DNA of 64,000 bases from contig SUYH01000006.1 of NCBI GenBank assembly GCA_015060535.1, forward strand, positions 124,001 to 188,000, read 5' to 3'. Below are positions 9,717 to 59,531 of this stretch, piece by piece. A program made the position numbers and the translations under genes. The first letter of the stretch is position 1; every line of letters begins with the position of its first letter. Source of the DNA: Prevotella sp. (GTDB lineage Bacteria > Bacteroidota > Bacteroidia > Bacteroidales > Bacteroidaceae). Below the pieces are notes generated by a model. The model did not search any database, was not told where the DNA came from, and saw only the letters and a program-made list of their open reading frames with translations.

Positions 9717-11120
9717 ATGAAAAGGAATATATTTTTAACTCTTGGTGCGGCAGTCCTAATGACTGCCTGCACCGAAGACTTCAAGGATTGGGCAGCTCCT
9801 ATGAGCAATGAAACACCCGATGCTACTTCGATCCTTTATGACGGTACTAATATTGAAATCACTCCAGAAGCAAGCACCATTGATTTTGCCAGCATCCCAG
9901 AAGGACAGGAGAATATCAAAGTCTGCTCTGTGAAAGCACCTACTGCTTTAAGTGGTGTAACAAAGGGCATAGACTATATTGTGCTTGACGATGTGATAAC
10001 TTATGAACTAGTAAATGATGGCGAGATGCATATCATCGACTTGGAAAATTATGTTACGACTATCTATGGTCGTCGTCCTGTCGAGCGCACTGTCTCTGCT
10101 TATGTCTATACTTCTTATAGCAACAGTAAGACCACAACAAGATGCTCTAGTGAAGTATTTACACTGAAGGTGAAGCCTAAAGCACCTATCATTGAGCAAG
10201 CCTATTATCTTACAGGTAACATCAACGGATGGGACAATACCAACACTGATTACAAGCTGACCAATGATGGTAGTGATCCTTACGATAACCCAACATTCAC
10301 TCTGCGTATCCCTGCACCTGAAGATGGTGGCAACGTAGAATTCAAGATGACTCCTGAGTCTGGCTTAGGAGGCGACTGGAGTGGATGTCTATCTGCTGGT
10401 GCAGAAGAAGGCAAGTTTGCTTACAACAATGCAGGAGGAAATCTTACCATTAACGCAGTTCCTGGAGCCAAATTCTATGACCTGAAATTTGAAATGCTCG
10501 ACCAGACATGGTCTTACACAGCCATTTCATTCAGTGACTACATCTATTTGGCTTGCGACTTCAATGGATGGTCCACAGAAGCTTCTCCTCTGATCCACCT
10601 AGGTGATGGTCTCTACGAGGGATTCTATTATATCCAGGAGGCTGACGAGTCATCTACTTGGGGCTTCAAGTTTGTCATCGATGGTTCATGGAGCGGTGGT
10701 GATCATACCAAAGCAACCTCTGGTACATACGAGTTAGGTGGAGGCGGCAACCTGAACTGCCCAACAGGTTTCTATCAAGTCAAGGTTAATCAGGCTGAAG
10801 CAACGTGGACACTTACCGAGGTCAGCTCAATCTCTCTGATTGGTTCTGCTGTTAATGGTGATTCAAACTGGGGAACAGATGCCGACATGACATTCAGCAC
10901 TACAGAAAAGTGTTGGATTTATGAAGGACCATTAACCGCTGGTGAGTTCAAATTCCGTATGAATCACGACTGGAGCATTAGTTGGGGTGGTACAGGCATG
11001 GACAACCTTACCAATGCCAACGGAGCAAATCTCCAAATGGCCGCTGCAGGCAACTACAAGGTGACATTTAAGCCAAACTGCAATGGTCAAGGTGTTTATA
11101 CGGTTACACCTGCCAACTAA
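9717..11120 (+). CDS. SusE/SusF-like outer membrane starch-binding lipoprotein
   Basis: Lipobox 'LMTACTEDFKDW', repeated CBM-like modules ('YYLTGNINGWDNTN', 'IYLACDFNGWSTEA', 'ISLIGSAVNGDSNWGTDADM'). Confidence 0.85.
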   Translation: MKRNIFLTLGAAVLMTACTEDFKDWAAPMSNETPDATSILYDGTNIEITPEASTIDFASIPEGQENIKVCSVKAPTALSGVTKGIDYIVLDDVITYELVNDGEMHIIDLENYVTTIYGRRPVERTVSAYVYTSYSNSKTTTRCSSEVFTLKVKPKAPIIEQAYYLTGNINGWDNTNTDYKLTNDGSDPYDNPTFTLRIPAPEDGGNVEFKMTPESGLGGDWSGCLSAGAEEGKFAYNNAGGNLTINAVPGAKFYDLKFEMLDQTWSYTAISFSDYIYLACDFNGWSTEASPLIHLGDGLYEGFYYIQEADESSTWGFKFVIDGSWSGGDHTKATSGTYELGGGGNLNCPTGFYQVKVNQAEATWTLTEVSSISLIGSAVNGDSNWGTDADMTFSTTEKCWIYEGPLTAGEFKFRMNHDWSISWGGTGMDNLTNANGANLQMAAAGNYKVTFKPNCNGQGVYTVTPAN

Positions 11121-11142
11121 TAGTTAGCATCATATTATCATT

Positions 11143-11178
11143 CAGGCGGACACCACGACAGGTGCCCGCCTGTTTTTA
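11143..11178 (+). terminator. Rho-independent terminator after susF-like gene
   Basis: CAGGCGGaCACC-acgaca-GGTGcCCGCCTG followed by TTTTTATTT. Confidence 0.8.
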
Positions 11179-11266
11179 TTTGATGCTACACGTTAGCAAA
11201 AAAATTGGGCTCAGTCCGAAAAGCCAGTTGATTCACGCGTTTCGGTAAGCCGATTCGTTTTGAAGC

Positions 11267-11354
11267 AAATTCAGTTGATTTGATAACCAAATTCAGTGAA
11301 TTTACAATGTAATTTCAGTGTATTTACAATCTAATTTCAGTGAATTTACATTCA
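11267..11354. repeat. 22-bp tandem repeat, 4 units, with 11-bp substructure
   Basis: aaattcagttgatttgataacc / aaattcagtgaatttacaatgt / aatttcagtgtatttacaatct / aatttcagtgaatttacattca. Confidence 0.85.
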
Positions 11355-11503
11355 ATACTTCTAAGTCTTTGACAATTATCACAGATTTCCGCCGATGCAA
11401 CCGATTGCGCAACATCAGAAGTATCATTTGAACGCGGAGAGAATAACGGAAAGAAATTTTTCGTACCTTTGCAGACAGAAATAACTAAGGACACTTTTCG
11501 CGT

Positions 11504-13318
11504 ATGAAGAAGATTTACACTATTTTATGGATGCTCACCATCTCTGTAGCCACAATGGCTCAGGGGTGGCCCGAGAAGTATGAGGGCGTGATGCTGCAGG
11601 GGTTCTACTGGGACGGCTATGCTGATGCACAATGGTCATTGCTTGAAAAGCAATCAGACAATATTTCCACGACATTCGACCTGGTGTGGATACCACAGAG
11701 TGCAAACTGCGGTGGACAGTCGATGGGCTACGATGACTTGTACTGGTTCTCGAATTACAACAGTTCGTTCGGTACTGCCGACGAACTCAAGTCGATGATT
11801 GCTACATTCAAGGCAAAGGGTATAGGCACCATAGCCGACATCGTAATTAACCACCGCAAGAATGTTTCGAACTGGGTGGACTTCCCCAAAGAGACATACA
11901 AAGGTGTGACCTACGAGCTGAAATCGACGGACATATGTGCCAACGACGACGGCGGTAGCACAAAGACTTGGGCTACGAAGAACGGCTATCAACTCTCGAC
12001 AAACAACGATACAGGCACTGATTGGGGTGGCATGCGCGATTTGGACCATAAGAGTGAGAATGTGCAGAACAATGTCAAAGCCTATCTGAAGATGTTGTTG
12101 GAGGACTTTGGCTATGTTGGTTTCCGTTACGACATGGTGAAGGGCTACGGTGGTCAGTATACCAAATTGTATAATGAAGACTCGAAACCGCAGTTCAGCG
12201 TTGGCGAGTGCTGGGACAGTAGCAATACTATCAAGAACTGGATTGACGCTACAGACAAGACCAGTGCAGCCTTCGACTTCCAATTTAAATATGTGGTGCG
12301 CAATGCTACCGACAAAAATGACTGGACCTATCTTGGCAAGCAGAATGAGGGTAATTGGCCACTCGTCAGCAGCAGCTTCAACAGCGGCAACTACCGCCGT
12401 TATGCTGTTACCTTTGTAGAGAACCACGACACAGAAGTACGTCCTGACGGATCTTCCAACGGTCCACTGCGAAAAGATACGCTGGCAGCCAACGCTTACC
12501 TTCTGGCTATGCCGGGAACACCTTGTGTGTTCATGAAGCACTGGCAGGAGTACAAGCAAGAAATTGCCAATATGGTGGCAGTGCGCAAGGCTGTGGGTAT
12601 CAACAATATAAGTATACCAACCGAAGTGGCTAAGGCCAAGGACTATTATGCCGTACAAGTAGAGGGCAGTGACAGCAAGAAACTGCTATGTGTTGTTGGC
12701 ACCAAGGCTAACAGCTATACTCCAGAGGACAGCAACTGGAAGAAAGTTATCAGCGGTTACCACTATGCCTACTATGTGCAAGGCATTGAACCCGCAAACA
12801 TTACATTACCCGAACTGAAAGAGGACGAAAAGCCAAAGGATGGTGTTTACGGTGGCGTACCCTCATTCTGCACCATTGAAGAAAACGAGATTTGTGCTTT
12901 CTTTGAGGCTCCTATGACATGGGGCAGTCAGATATTCACTTGGGCATGGATGAACGGTGGTGATGGAAAGGACTATGTAGGTGCAAACTGGCCTGGTGTT
13001 GAAGCATCATTGCTAGGTACTGCAGACAATGGCAACAAGGTGTTTAAGTGGGTGTCTACCAAGACCACGGCTCCCGACAATATTATTTTCAGTGGTGGCG
13101 GCAACAAGACAGCAGACCTTGTATTCACCAACGCTGGCTACTATACCAAGGACGGAAAGCAAGCTGTAGTAACTGCGACCGGCATCGAAGCCATCCGCAC
13201 TACCCCATCCGTTCAGAACGGAGTGATCTACGACCTGCAGGGACGGAAGATGGGAACGACGTGGGATGCGCTGCCTAAGGGCCTGTATATCGTCAACGGT
13301 AAAAAAATTGTCAAGTGA
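11504..13318 (+). CDS. Secreted alpha-amylase, GH13 family
   Basis: Signal peptide; 'VMLQGFYWDGY', 'IADIVINHRKN', 'FRYDMVKGYGG', 'VENHDTE'; C-terminal 'GVIYDLQGRKMGTTWDALPKGLYIVNGKKIVK'. Confidence 0.93.
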   Translation: MKKIYTILWMLTISVATMAQGWPEKYEGVMLQGFYWDGYADAQWSLLEKQSDNISTTFDLVWIPQSANCGGQSMGYDDLYWFSNYNSSFGTADELKSMIATFKAKGIGTIADIVINHRKNVSNWVDFPKETYKGVTYELKSTDICANDDGGSTKTWATKNGYQLSTNNDTGTDWGGMRDLDHKSENVQNNVKAYLKMLLEDFGYVGFRYDMVKGYGGQYTKLYNEDSKPQFSVGECWDSSNTIKNWIDATDKTSAAFDFQFKYVVRNATDKNDWTYLGKQNEGNWPLVSSSFNSGNYRRYAVTFVENHDTEVRPDGSSNGPLRKDTLAANAYLLAMPGTPCVFMKHWQEYKQEIANMVAVRKAVGINNISIPTEVAKAKDYYAVQVEGSDSKKLLCVVGTKANSYTPEDSNWKKVISGYHYAYYVQGIEPANITLPELKEDEKPKDGVYGGVPSFCTIEENEICAFFEAPMTWGSQIFTWAWMNGGDGKDYVGANWPGVEASLLGTADNGNKVFKWVSTKTTAPDNIIFSGGGNKTADLVFTNAGYYTKDGKQAVVTATGIEAIRTTPSVQNGVIYDLQGRKMGTTWDALPKGLYIVNGKKIVK

Positions 13319-13812: not shown

Positions 13813-13996
13813 GTGGAAGTGGAAGGAATCGTAATCGACGTAGTCGCTTTGTACCTTTAGGTCAAAGAACCCTCACGAGGGTGAGATCCCTCTGCTGTAA
13901 CGAAGTGGAAGTGGAGGGAATCGTAATCGACGTTGTCGCTTTGTACCTTTAGGTCAAAGAACCCTCACGAGGGTGAGGTCCCTCTGCTGTAACGAA
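13813..13996. repeat. 92-bp tandem repeat x2 adjoining the tmRNA 3' end
   Basis: Units 13813-13904 and 13905-13996, 3 mismatches in 92. Each begins with the tmRNA 3'-end core GTGGAAGTGGA(A/G)GGAATCG, which recurs at 13997 inside tmRNA. Confidence 0.92.
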
Positions 13997-13997
13997 G

Positions 13998-14395
13998 TGG
14001 AAGTGGAGGGAATCGAACCCTCGTCCACACGAGGAAACCATACGCTTTCTACATGCTTATCTTGGCCTTCATTTTCGTGCCGTGACAAGACCCAAGCCAC
14101 CAATCACGACCTTATCTCCTAAATTTTCATCTCCCAATCGGAGCGCCCGAGAGACTATTTCCGATTTAACCTGCACCGCTTGACCCTCAGATTCGGAACC
14201 AGATCTTTGGAGCGATGTCTCGTTCTCCTACCTGGTAGGAGAATAAAGCCAGTAATCTACTGTACTTCGATTAGGCAGCGAGAGCGTACTTGTTTTCGCC
14301 AATTAATTGTTCGACCGAATGGATTATGGAGTATACAGCCGTCACTCCGCATGCTTACGTACCATCTCGGCTCGCTGTCAAATCCAGTCACCCCC
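13998..14395 (-). ncRNA. ssrA: tmRNA (transfer-messenger RNA)
   Basis: Minus strand: 5' GGGGGTGACTGGATTTGACAG...; tag reading frame GGC GAA AAC AAG TAC GCT CTC GCT GCC TAA (GENKYALAA*); 3' GAGGGTTCGATTCCCTCCACTTCCA; acceptor GGGGGTG pairs with CACTTCC (with G-U pairs). Confidence 0.96.
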
Positions 14396-28484: not shown

Positions 28485-28578
28485 TCGCATCGTACGTCAA
28501 TTTAGAATGCACTTACCTTCGATATCCCCAAGATGTAGTCCCCATTCTTGTACGATTGAACAACGTTTGATATACGTC

Positions 28579-28605
28579 TGTTGTCCGTTTATTAATCGGA
28601 CAACA
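28579..28605. promoter_or_regulatory. Inverted repeat / hairpin in leader
   Basis: TGTTGTCCG-tttattaat-CGGACAACA, 9-bp perfect arms. Confidence 0.65.
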
Positions 28606-28648
28606 ATCGAACATCAATCGGACAACAGTGGGAGAACAGTGGGAGAAA
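28594..28648. repeat. 11-bp periodic tandem repeat (5 units; 22-bp higher-order copy)
   Basis: aatcggacaac / aatcgaacatc / aatcggacaac / agtgggagaac / agtgggagaaa. Confidence 0.75.
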
Positions 28649-28743
28649 GAACGAAGGAAGAAGAGAGCAAAGGTAAAGATGAAATGGAGTGCGATTTGAC
28701 AGGAATGAGAGTAGAATTAGCATACTACATAAAATATATTGTG

Positions 28744-29475
28744 ATGAAAAGGAAAGGAACAGGAAAAGGACTGATGGTTGTTGGCAGTATGCGAAAGGAC
28801 GGCATTACAACCTACATGAAGCAAGGCAGAATGATTGTACGGTCTGCAAATTCCATGGAGAGGCGCAGCAATACGCTGCCTCAGTTTATTCAACGGCAGA
28901 AAATGCGTCATTCCGTGGCGCTATGGAGGATGATGAAGTATTGTGAGCCGATGTTTACCAAAGGAACAACGGCTTATAACAACTTCCTGTCACTAGCCAA
29001 CCAATTGCCTGCGTTGTATGTAGAAAAGATCGTGATGGAAAACACCTCGTTCCTGATGCCAGGCATACCCGTAAGTGACGGTAACCTTCCGAAGATTAAA
29101 GAGGAGTTGGGCGAGGTGGACGGAATGCCAGCCCTGATTACTAATCTCAAGCCTCATGACTGGGAACCTTGGACGAAGTTATGGCTTTATACCGCCGTTC
29201 AGACTGGTGAATACAGAGATATTCACGTGCAGTTCAGCAAGCGCGAAGTATCTTGGGAAGAGATGACGGTGGTGGACGGACATTATGTATTGAAGTGTAA
29301 GGAATTCTCCGATGAGACAAAAGGCTGGGCACTGGTGTTGGTAAAAGGGGAACGCTGTTCGCCACAGGCCATTGTTACACGTTGTACGCTATACCAAAAG
29401 TACATGACAGAAGAAGCCTTAGAGAAAGCAGCAGAAAGCTATGGCGGACTCACTGGAATAAATAAATTTTTATAA
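28744..29475 (+). CDS. Hypothetical conserved-type protein
   Basis: Start at 28744 (MKRKGTGKGLMVVGSMRKDG...) preferred over 28507, because the extended N-terminus is translated from hairpin/repeat DNA. Confidence 0.65.
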   Translation: MKRKGTGKGLMVVGSMRKDGITTYMKQGRMIVRSANSMERRSNTLPQFIQRQKMRHSVALWRMMKYCEPMFTKGTTAYNNFLSLANQLPALYVEKIVMENTSFLMPGIPVSDGNLPKIKEELGEVDGMPALITNLKPHDWEPWTKLWLYTAVQTGEYRDIHVQFSKREVSWEEMTVVDGHYVLKCKEFSDETKGWALVLVKGERCSPQAIVTRCTLYQKYMTEEALEKAAESYGGLTGINKFL

Positions 29476-57244: not shown

Positions 57245-58990
57245 ATGAAAAAGATTGCAAAACTTATGACACTGGCCTTGGCGGTCATCACGCTCGCCAG
57301 TTGTGAGGACGTTCCAAGTCCTTTTGGAACCGTTACGCCTCCGAAGACTCAAGGTGAGAGTTCCACTGTAGAGCCAGCAGGCGATGGTACAGCTACCAAC
57401 CCCTTTAATATTGCTGCAGCCATTGCGAAGTGTAAGGAGATTGGATCTACCGAATCAACGGAGAAATACTACGTCAAAGGCGTTGTAGTGAATGCCGGTG
57501 CAGCTGATGCCACCTATGGAAACGCTTCTTTCTACATGGCTGACGAAGAAGACACGTCGAGCAAGTTCTATGCCTTCCAGGTATTGGGCTCCGACGGCAA
57601 GAAGATGACTGCAGGCTATGCCATCAATGTGGGCGATGTAGTAGTCATCTATGGTCCTATCTACAACTACAAGGGTAACACACCGGAGACCGCAGGCAAG
57701 GGTGCAGCCTATATCGTGACCATCAATGGCAAGAGGACAGACGAAGGAAGCAGTACTCCTACTGGCGAATATGGCACGAAGGATGCTCCGCTGACCGTTG
57801 CTAAAGCACTAGAGGTTATCAATGGACTGGAGCCTGCTGGCTCAGTAAGTCCCGCCTACGTAAAGGGTAAGATTTCGAAGGTTCAGAGCTTTAACGATAA
57901 ATATAAGAGCATTACTTACTATATCTCTGACGATGGTTCTGACGCCAATGCCCTACAAGTGTATAGCGGCAAGGGACTTGATGGTGCTGATTTCACCGCA
58001 CAGACCGACCTTCAGGTAGGCTGGACAGTCGTTGTGACAGGCGAGCTGAAGAAGTATGTCAACTCCAGCACTGGTGCCACCACACCTGAAATCAACCAGA
58101 GCAGCACGATTGTTTCTATCGACAAGACTACTGGTGGCAACACAACTCCTGATGAAGGCGAGACAAAGAAAGTATCTGTTGCCGAATTCCTCGCTGCTTC
58201 AGAAAGCACATCCGACTGGTATCAGTTGACAGGAACCGTTACCCATCTTGAAGATGGAACCTACAACAACAGTACTAAATACGGAAACTTTGACCTTGTC
58301 GACGAGACAGGCTCGATTTATGTCTATGGCGTTGTGACGGAAAAGGGAGGCGCCAAAGGACAATTCGCTGACTTGATGGCTGCTAAGGGTATCAAGGATG
58401 GATGCAAAATCACCATCATCGGTAACCGTGGCTCATACAAGGAAACTGCCCAGGTCGTCAATGCATACTTCGTCAGTGTAGAAGCCGGTAGTGGCGATGG
58501 AGGTTCGTCAACAGGTGCATCCTCTTACAGCATGGACTTCAAGACTAATGGAATAGGAAGCTGGACTCTCACTGACAAGACAAAACCTTCAGATATTGAT
58601 GCCATCTGGAAGTACAACAGCAAATATGGCATGGTAGCCACAGCTTATGTCAATTCTACGAACTATGCTTCTGAATCGTGGATTATATCCCCAAAATTTG
58701 ATTTAAGCGGAGCCACCAAGGCCACATTGACATTACACCACGCCATCAACTTCTTCACATCAGTAGACGTGGCTAAGACAGAGGTTCTTATTAAGGTTTC
58801 TACCGATGGGACGAACTGGACGAACCTGACATTGACGGGATGGCCGGAAAAATTGGGTTGGACATTCTTTGACTCAACAGCCGACTTCTCATCATATGCG
58901 GGAAAGAAAGACGTTCAGATTGCTTTCGTCTATACCAGCACTGCTGAGAAAGCTGGTACATGGGAAATAGAAAAGGTTACCATCGAATAA
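57245..58990 (+). CDS. Multi-OB-fold-like lipoprotein with C-terminal jelly-roll (choice-of-anchor-like) domain
   Basis: Lipobox 'TLASCEDVPS'; three OB-like segments ('YYVKGVVVNAG...', 'AYVKGKISKVQSF...', 'YQLTGTVTHLEDG...'); C-terminal 'ESWIISPKFDLSGATKATLTLHHAI'. Confidence 0.8.
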   Translation: MKKIAKLMTLALAVITLASCEDVPSPFGTVTPPKTQGESSTVEPAGDGTATNPFNIAAAIAKCKEIGSTESTEKYYVKGVVVNAGAADATYGNASFYMADEEDTSSKFYAFQVLGSDGKKMTAGYAINVGDVVVIYGPIYNYKGNTPETAGKGAAYIVTINGKRTDEGSSTPTGEYGTKDAPLTVAKALEVINGLEPAGSVSPAYVKGKISKVQSFNDKYKSITYYISDDGSDANALQVYSGKGLDGADFTAQTDLQVGWTVVVTGELKKYVNSSTGATTPEINQSSTIVSIDKTTGGNTTPDEGETKKVSVAEFLAASESTSDWYQLTGTVTHLEDGTYNNSTKYGNFDLVDETGSIYVYGVVTEKGGAKGQFADLMAAKGIKDGCKITIIGNRGSYKETAQVVNAYFVSVEAGSGDGGSSTGASSYSMDFKTNGIGSWTLTDKTKPSDIDAIWKYNSKYGMVATAYVNSTNYASESWIISPKFDLSGATKATLTLHHAINFFTSVDVAKTEVLIKVSTDGTNWTNLTLTGWPEKLGWTFFDSTADFSSYAGKKDVQIAFVYTSTAEKAGTWEIEKVTIE

Positions 58991-59048: not shown

Positions 59049-59076
59049 ATTATTTCTCAAAAAGTCATTAATCCTG

Positions 59077-59142
59077 GCAATTGCAAGTATTAATAGTAGC
59101 AATTGCGGAGATTAATAGTAGCAATTGCGGGAATTAATAGTA
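59077..59142. repeat. 22-bp tandem repeat, 3 units, with 11-bp substructure
   Basis: gcaattgcaagtattaatagta / gcaattgcggagattaatagta / gcaattgcgggaattaatagta. Confidence 0.9.
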
Positions 59143-59192: not shown

Positions 59193-59224
59193 TTTGGTGG
59201 AAAGGAAAAAAGTTCGTACCTTTG
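59193..59224 (+). promoter_or_regulatory. Bacteroidetes promoter for L31 gene (TTTG-N20-TACCTTTG)
   Basis: TTTG 59193-59196, TACCTTTG 59217-59224. Confidence 0.78.
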
Positions 59225-59276: not shown

Positions 59277-59531
59277 ATGAAAAAAGGTATTCATCCAGAA
59301 AACTATCGCCCCGTCGTGTTTAAGGACATGTCCAACGGCGATATGTTCCTCTCGCGCTCTACCGCAAAGACAAACGACACCGTAGAGTTCGAAGGCGAAA
59401 CTTACCCTGTGGTAAAGATTGAAATTTCGAGCACATCTCACCCCTTCTACACTGGTAAGAGCAAGCTCGTCGACACCGCTGGTCGTGTTGATAAGTTCAT
59501 GAGCCGCTACGGTAAGGCTGCGAAGAAATAA
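59277..59531 (+). CDS. rpmE2: 50S ribosomal protein L31 type B
   Basis: '[29 protein letters not shown]...[29 protein letters not shown]'; no CxxC motifs. Confidence 0.96.

Follow-up and report, generated by a model that had tools for sequence, protein, structure and literature searches.

The 64,000-nucleotide window analysed here, that is, the whole stretch of DNA presented above, belongs to a rumen-type Prevotella, the assembly of which consists of 31 contigs (2.94 Mb, about 83% complete). Three tandem arrays had been pointed out in it by a first-pass annotation, and all of them were found in place by Tandem Repeats Finder and by the grid of their units. The arrays and the genes around them are the following:

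9717..11120, plus strand: SusF-like outer membrane protein (match weak and under the Pfam cut-off), upstream of the family A array
11204..11385, plus strand: 182-bp stretch around the family A array, 81% homologous to C22:12520-12679
11267..11354, no strand: family A array, made of four 22-bp units that resemble AAATTCAGTGAATTTACAATGT
11504..13318, plus strand: alpha-amylase, downstream of the family A array
28550..28648, no strand: third array, 11-bp grid, with AATCGGACAAC units at 28594-28648
57245..58990, plus strand: protein with an OB-fold match, upstream of the family B array
59062..59142, no strand: family B array, 22-bp unit, period 22 x3.6 (Tandem Repeats Finder)
59277..59531, plus strand: ribosomal protein L31 gene, downstream of the family B array

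The family A array (period 22 x3.9 at 11266-11350) forms an exact 4 x 22 grid, with units starting at 11267, 11289, 11311 and 11333. Palindromes of the forms TTCA-S-TGAA and TTTACA-W-TGTAAA alternate along it, their centres 11 bp apart. The 182-bp stretch around it opens with GGCTCAGTCCGAAAAG at 11208-11223, the same sequence that makes up the terminal inverted repeats of the copy at C22. Judged by these letters, the array appears to be carried in a MITE-like element, of which one end only is recognisable in the window. A terminator-like stem is located at about 11136-11175, after the SusF-like gene, and a -7-like box (TACCTTTG, 11464-11471) lies between the array and the alpha-amylase gene. 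The same box is present at 59217-59224, between the family B array and the L31 gene. Within the family B array, ATTAAT and GCAATTGC cores alternate, again with centres 11 bp apart. The third array, detected with period 11 at 28594-28638/28620-28647, extends to the left as far as about 28550 through inverted GTTGTCCGTTT-type units (28550-28593) on the 11-bp grid. An ORF downstream of it (28507-29475), whose family was not recognised, has its likely start at 28744, which places the array about 95 bp upstream.

The arrays had been described as unrelated to each other. Those at 11267 and 59077 indeed differ in sequence, but they are not singletons, as their units recur at other loci. Family A occupies four loci in its own genome (the window, C22:12520, C7:63808 and C5:108313) and family B about ten, while a reversed-pattern control for the latter gave 0 matches. 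Across the genus, the array families are patchy: family A is found in 3 of 150 genomes, family B in 12 of 150 and family D in 10 of 200. At least 10 family D loci are present in genome G280 and six to seven in G105, each genome having its own variant. The family C pattern was found in the own genome, and the other order-level matches look like chance. The genes flanking the arrays have no functional theme in common, and the arrays are not enriched in any intergenic class.

The region upstream of the amylase gene carries 22-bp arrays of different families depending on the species (L081, L086, L091, L055, L089, L129), and the family D array found there has opposite orientations in L086 and L091. 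A LacI-type operator (TGCAACCGATTGCGCA, at 11396-11411 in the window) is located upstream of alpha-amylase in nearly all relatives, independently of the arrays. The arrays were rejected as a conserved amylase operator, since their family differs between species or the array is absent, and it is the separate LacI-type operator that is conserved instead.

All periods from 4 to 60 were covered by a scan of intergenic DNA for tandem similarity. The 759-kb sample of the own genome gave 14 clusters at period 22, against 0, 5, 0 and 3 at periods 20, 21, 23 and 24. In 820 kb of loci from 80 relatives, the corresponding numbers were 19 against 0, 15, 2 and 2. Markov-1 (dinucleotide) shuffles of the own sample contained about 0 arrays. 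The preference for 11/22 bp suggested by the first-pass annotation is thus specific to period 22, in the own genome as well as in relatives; neighbouring periods are far from equally common (0 at 20, 0-2 at 23). Given this enrichment and the near absence of arrays in shuffles, the period is not accidental. A separate second class of arrays, with period 7/14/21, is as common as period 22; it was not found in the Bacteroidales outgroup sample.

An 11-bp period is close to one DNA helical turn. Over all intergenic DNA, the distances between palindrome centres have their peak at 11 bp exactly, with 11 and 23 pairs compared to about 1.7 in shuffles. The palindrome is not the defining feature of the arrays, because its symmetry exceeds that of shuffles at the 0.05 level in only 12 of 35 22-bp arrays. 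The conservation is organised by position. In those family B units that adjoin the search match, and were thus not selected by the search, ATTAAT and CAATTG are kept while the 5-bp spacers vary. The difference in conservation between cores and spacers has a P of 2e-4 over 23 loci, and shifting the frame by half a core-spacer step reverses the sign of the contrast. In G105, each of the seven family D loci contains four units, all 21 spacings are exactly 22, and the 10-bp core GACTTAAGTC is conserved at 279 of 280 positions, compared to 54-82% for the 12-bp spacer. In G280 the family D spacing varies from 22 to 23. Within one D element, different blocks keep a common 22-bp register. The fixed spacing, together with the divergence of the spacers, resembles the outcome of recognition at a fixed helical phase more than that of slippage, and a conserved core at fixed helical spacing with a variable spacer is the layout of a protein-binding operator array. 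Several D elements (L302, L390, L306, L300) also contain extra in-register 22-bp blocks beside the palindromic core blocks, made of about 12 conserved and about 10 variable bases (e.g., TTAAAAGCCTTT + 10).

Two of the genes flanking arrays encode HU-HIG proteins (Pfam PF18291). The genes beside the B and A arrays reach 55.4 and 83.2 bits, respectively, well above the Pfam cut-off of 26.2 (E-values of 8e-15 and 2e-23). An AlphaFold model of the partner (pLDDT 74) matches 4fmr (E 4e-5) and HU/IHF structures, and the array partner proteins are accordingly predicted to have the HU fold. To our knowledge, no function has been described for HU-HIG, a family reportedly covered by Burroughs et al. in 2017. 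Its members are numerous, with 31 matches in the own genome and a range of 8 to 40 per genome over the six Prevotella genomes searched.

The arrays are concentrated around these genes. In the own sample, which includes two stretches (L039, L040) chosen because family A matches lay there, 10 of the 16 11/22-bp arrays fall within 1.5 kb of HU-HIG genes, a zone that makes up 10% of the intergenic DNA and would be expected to contain 0.66 of them (P about 2e-9); none of the 27 arrays of period 7/14 does so. Together, all 30 HU-HIG loci of the own genome have 12 arrays, where 2.2 would be expected (P about 4e-6). A tighter test over 800 bp, in which a profile made from fetched proteins identified the HU-HIG genes, gave 8 against 0.64. 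Among 97 HU-HIG genes from six genomes, a set that includes near-duplicates, 55 period-22 arrays were found within 400 bp, compared to 7.4 expected when scaled from 1,358 other genes. Around the same 97 genes (400 bp), periods 8 and 16 are also raised, to a smaller extent in absolute terms, and no array was detected at 44 of them. With strict thresholds, the 30 HU-HIG loci of other genomes taken alone gave 9 against 5.6, which is not significant (P 0.11). The outgroup sample of Bacteroidales has few arrays; it is uninformative on this pairing, as it contained no HU-HIG gene.

Particular families accompany particular HU-HIG genes. Family A, a label that takes in looser variants (L359, L364), is located upstream of clade A genes, at -54 in the own genome (L328) and at -60 in G280 (L363). 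Family B is likewise found upstream, at -109 in the own genome (L340), at -97, -115 and -85 in G025 (L367, L385, L423) and at -81 in G083 (L388). Families C and D are both located just downstream of the stop codon, the former in the own genome (L343) and G025 (L424), the latter in G105 (L386), G280 (L387) and G300 (L390). Family H, of the 11-bp type, consists of two inverted blocks at about -180 and -490 (own genome, L336; G083, L380; G025, L372). The carriers of A, B, C, D and H each form one branch of the HU-HIG tree, with a support of 95-100.

For cross-genome pairs of HU-HIG genes with at least 45% identity, the mean array score is 12.4, compared to 7.2 ± 0.5 when arrays are swapped among genes within the same genome, and none of 2000 such reshufflings reaches the observed value. 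In the same pairs, the DNA between gene and array cannot be aligned (scores at the shuffled level), while the arrays can. The pairing is therefore more than a conserved neighbourhood. Two predictions made beforehand were also correct: G083:C5:67114 belongs to clade B and has a B array 81 bp upstream, and G300:C8:119020 belongs to clade D and has a D-type array 38 bp downstream.

The dispersed arrays can be compared with those beside the genes. For family D in three genomes, the gene-side array that scores best with each of the 16 dispersed arrays is the one in the same genome (66-104, compared to 21-52 for the other two). Dispersed B arrays gave a mixed picture, with no consistent best match to the gene-side array of their own genome. 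Among the HU-HIG flanks examined, the array at 11267 is best matched by that of the own clade A gene (score of 54), followed by its G280 counterpart (43), over a background of 19. The best flanks for the array at 59077 are those of clade B genes (51 in G083, 45 in the own genome; background 16). The array at 28594 had no match above background (score of 16) in any of the HU-HIG flanks examined. In G001, the 20-kb stretch around the A array contains no HU-HIG gene.

Since matching arrays adjoin particular members of the family, arrays of the type seen in the window are probably HU-HIG binding sites. Our preferred explanation, which we consider likely on the basis of these sequence comparisons, is that the 22-bp arrays are the cognate multi-site binding arrays of HU-HIG paralogues, probably autoregulatory, with the A and B arrays of the window as dispersed sites. 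Each HU-HIG clade would have its own array sequence, the copy beside the gene probably serving autoregulation, and further copies scattered between unrelated genes would be dispersed sites of the same clade. Spaced by one or two turns of the helix (11/22 bp), HU-like dimers might occupy the palindromic cores as neighbours along a single face of the DNA. The bound dimers could then form a short nucleoprotein filament, which would shape or insulate the local DNA, or tune nearby transcription. The array at 11267 would be a dispersed site of the HU-HIG A protein encoded at C7:63959, and the one at 59077 a dispersed site of HU-HIG B, encoded at C16:18772/C26:1. For binding, filament formation, autoregulation and any effect on neighbouring genes, we infer from sequence patterns. 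Three causes had been put forward in the first-pass annotation. A protein contacting one face per turn agrees with the 11/22-bp cores, the variable spacers and the pairing with HU-HIG clades. Phased curvature alone does not explain the family-specific, often non-A-tract sequences, and a duplication mechanism with a fixed unit size explains neither conserved cores with variable spacers nor the gene pairing.

The most serious competitor, which we regard as a real possibility, is that of selfish or mobile elements: the arrays would be short MITE-like repeats, comparable to REP or BrickBuilt, that spread through a transposase or through copying, with HU-HIG genes as co-travelling hosts or as helpers in their mobilisation. 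At C22, the family A copy is bounded by terminal inverted repeats, with direct repeats (GCGAATAACC) on its flanks, D elements were copied together with their flanking arms, and the families have a patchy distribution, with amplification in individual genomes. A B array is also part of a 174-bp segment found in identical form at C16:18577 and C16:60235. This segment (L140, L142) comprises a promoter box and the array, and precedes an HU-HIG gene at one location and a permease gene at the other. Because array-bearing elements show such signs of copying, a selfish component is plausible. However, most copies have no recognised terminal repeats (in family A, both inverted ends are found in the C22 copy only, one in the window copy and none in the C5 and C7 copies), and the spacing stays at exactly 22 while the spacers diverge, which is unexpected for a passive passenger. 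The mobile-repeat explanation shares the binding step with the HU-HIG explanation and is compatible with it. In favour of ordinary minisatellites, born of replication slippage with 22 bp as no more than a favoured duplication length, some arrays have only two to three units, and 7/14/21-bp arrays, which resemble slippage products, are also abundant. The same units nevertheless occur at unrelated loci, neighbouring periods are not enriched, cores are conserved over spacers and the gene pairing extends across species. Positional core conservation and HU-HIG pairing refute slippage for A, B and D, and for the arrays in general we hold it to be very unlikely.

It is only slightly less improbable that the arrays serve ordinary transcription factors as operators, or act as RNA hairpins in mRNA leaders or tails. 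Many of them are near promoters or terminators and their units are palindromic, but no intergenic class is favoured, the neighbouring genes are unrelated and the clade pairing points to HU-HIG. Complementarity of the spacers is weak around ATTAAT (9 of 1000 shuffles as high) and absent around CAATTG in family B, which leaves a conserved hairpin mostly unsupported. Known RNA families were rejected, the tmRNA being the only Rfam match, and no plasmid homologues were found. At 13813-14015 and 13995-14395, a near-perfect 92-bp x2.2 tandem duplication adjoins and overlaps the 3' end of this tmRNA (minus strand), and looks like attachment-site scars left by integrations at the tmRNA. An origin as REP/BIME-like elements of a RAYT (Y1 transposase) is the least credible of all, and highly improbable, even though REPs are likewise short, palindromic, extragenic, tandem and species-specific. 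No PF01797 match was obtained in the D-rich genomes G280, G105, G300 and G035, the inverted repeat of 30 nt around the only RAYT of the own genome is unrelated, and RAYT loci elsewhere have no A arrays and only isolated short B or D words. This origin was rejected for A, B and D, as their repeats were not found to flank a RAYT gene. The RAYT-like gene of the own genome (L234, C22:29785) is a single gene, and a 30-nt REP-like hairpin (GTGCACAGCGGAACCGACCCTATTGTGCAC) is present in inverted copies on its two sides.

HU and IHF are DNA-bending dimers, classical HU having little sequence preference and IHF binding single sites. The partner proteins belong to the HU-HIG family (PF18291) of the HU/IHF superfamily and share the HU fold; unlike classical HU/IHF, the paralogues here are accompanied by clade-specific, 22-bp-phased arrays of several units. 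Iterons and autoregulated multi-site operators also consist of direct repeats, spaced by whole turns of the helix and located next to the gene whose product presumably binds them. The arrays differ from them in not being a replication origin, in their many chromosomal sites in trans and in a partner with the HU fold. As in REP/BIME and RAYT systems, extragenic palindromic repeats occur on the flanks of the partner gene; this partner is not a Y1 transposase, and the 22-bp phasing is exact.

Beyond the preferred explanation, HU-HIG paralogues of Bacteroidetes may represent a previously unrecognised class of chromatin proteins that bind arrays in a sequence-specific manner, each co-evolving with its own 22-bp-phased family beside its gene and at many other sites; we put this forward tentatively, as a proposal with slightly less in favour of it than against it. 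If true, one bacterium would contain dozens of nucleoprotein systems working in parallel, whether locus-marking or selfish. HU-HIG is among the largest paralogue families of these gut bacteria, and the pairing supplies a candidate DNA target for each clade, through which HU-HIG function becomes testable by binding and deletion experiments. The pairing would also account for many "anonymous" repeats between genes, and it suggests that an evolvable sequence specificity, read at helical phase, is possible for HU-type proteins. A search of openly accessible papers found nothing on 22-bp intergenic arrays in Prevotella, on HU-HIG, or on HU-HIG together with repeats.

The nearest described repeat is BrickBuilt of Porphyromonas gingivalis, a MITE minisatellite with a single 23-nt unit family, found in one species and described with no protein partner (PMC4596501). 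Both are intergenic, dispersed and made of short tandem units in Bacteroidales. BrickBuilt has a leader and tail bearing inverted ends (PMC4596501); among the family A copies, both inverted ends were recognised at C22 only. The present arrays differ in comprising many families, paired with HU-HIG clades, and in their unit of 22 bp (two 11-bp half-steps) instead of 23; period 23 is not enriched. The TAACTGA direct repeats of Beggiatoaceae, abundant short intergenic heptamers, resemble the separate 7-bp class and not the 22-bp class (PMC4679880). The 7/14/21-bp arrays are A/T-rich, and 43 of 49 are located in gaps between co-directional genes, often short ones.
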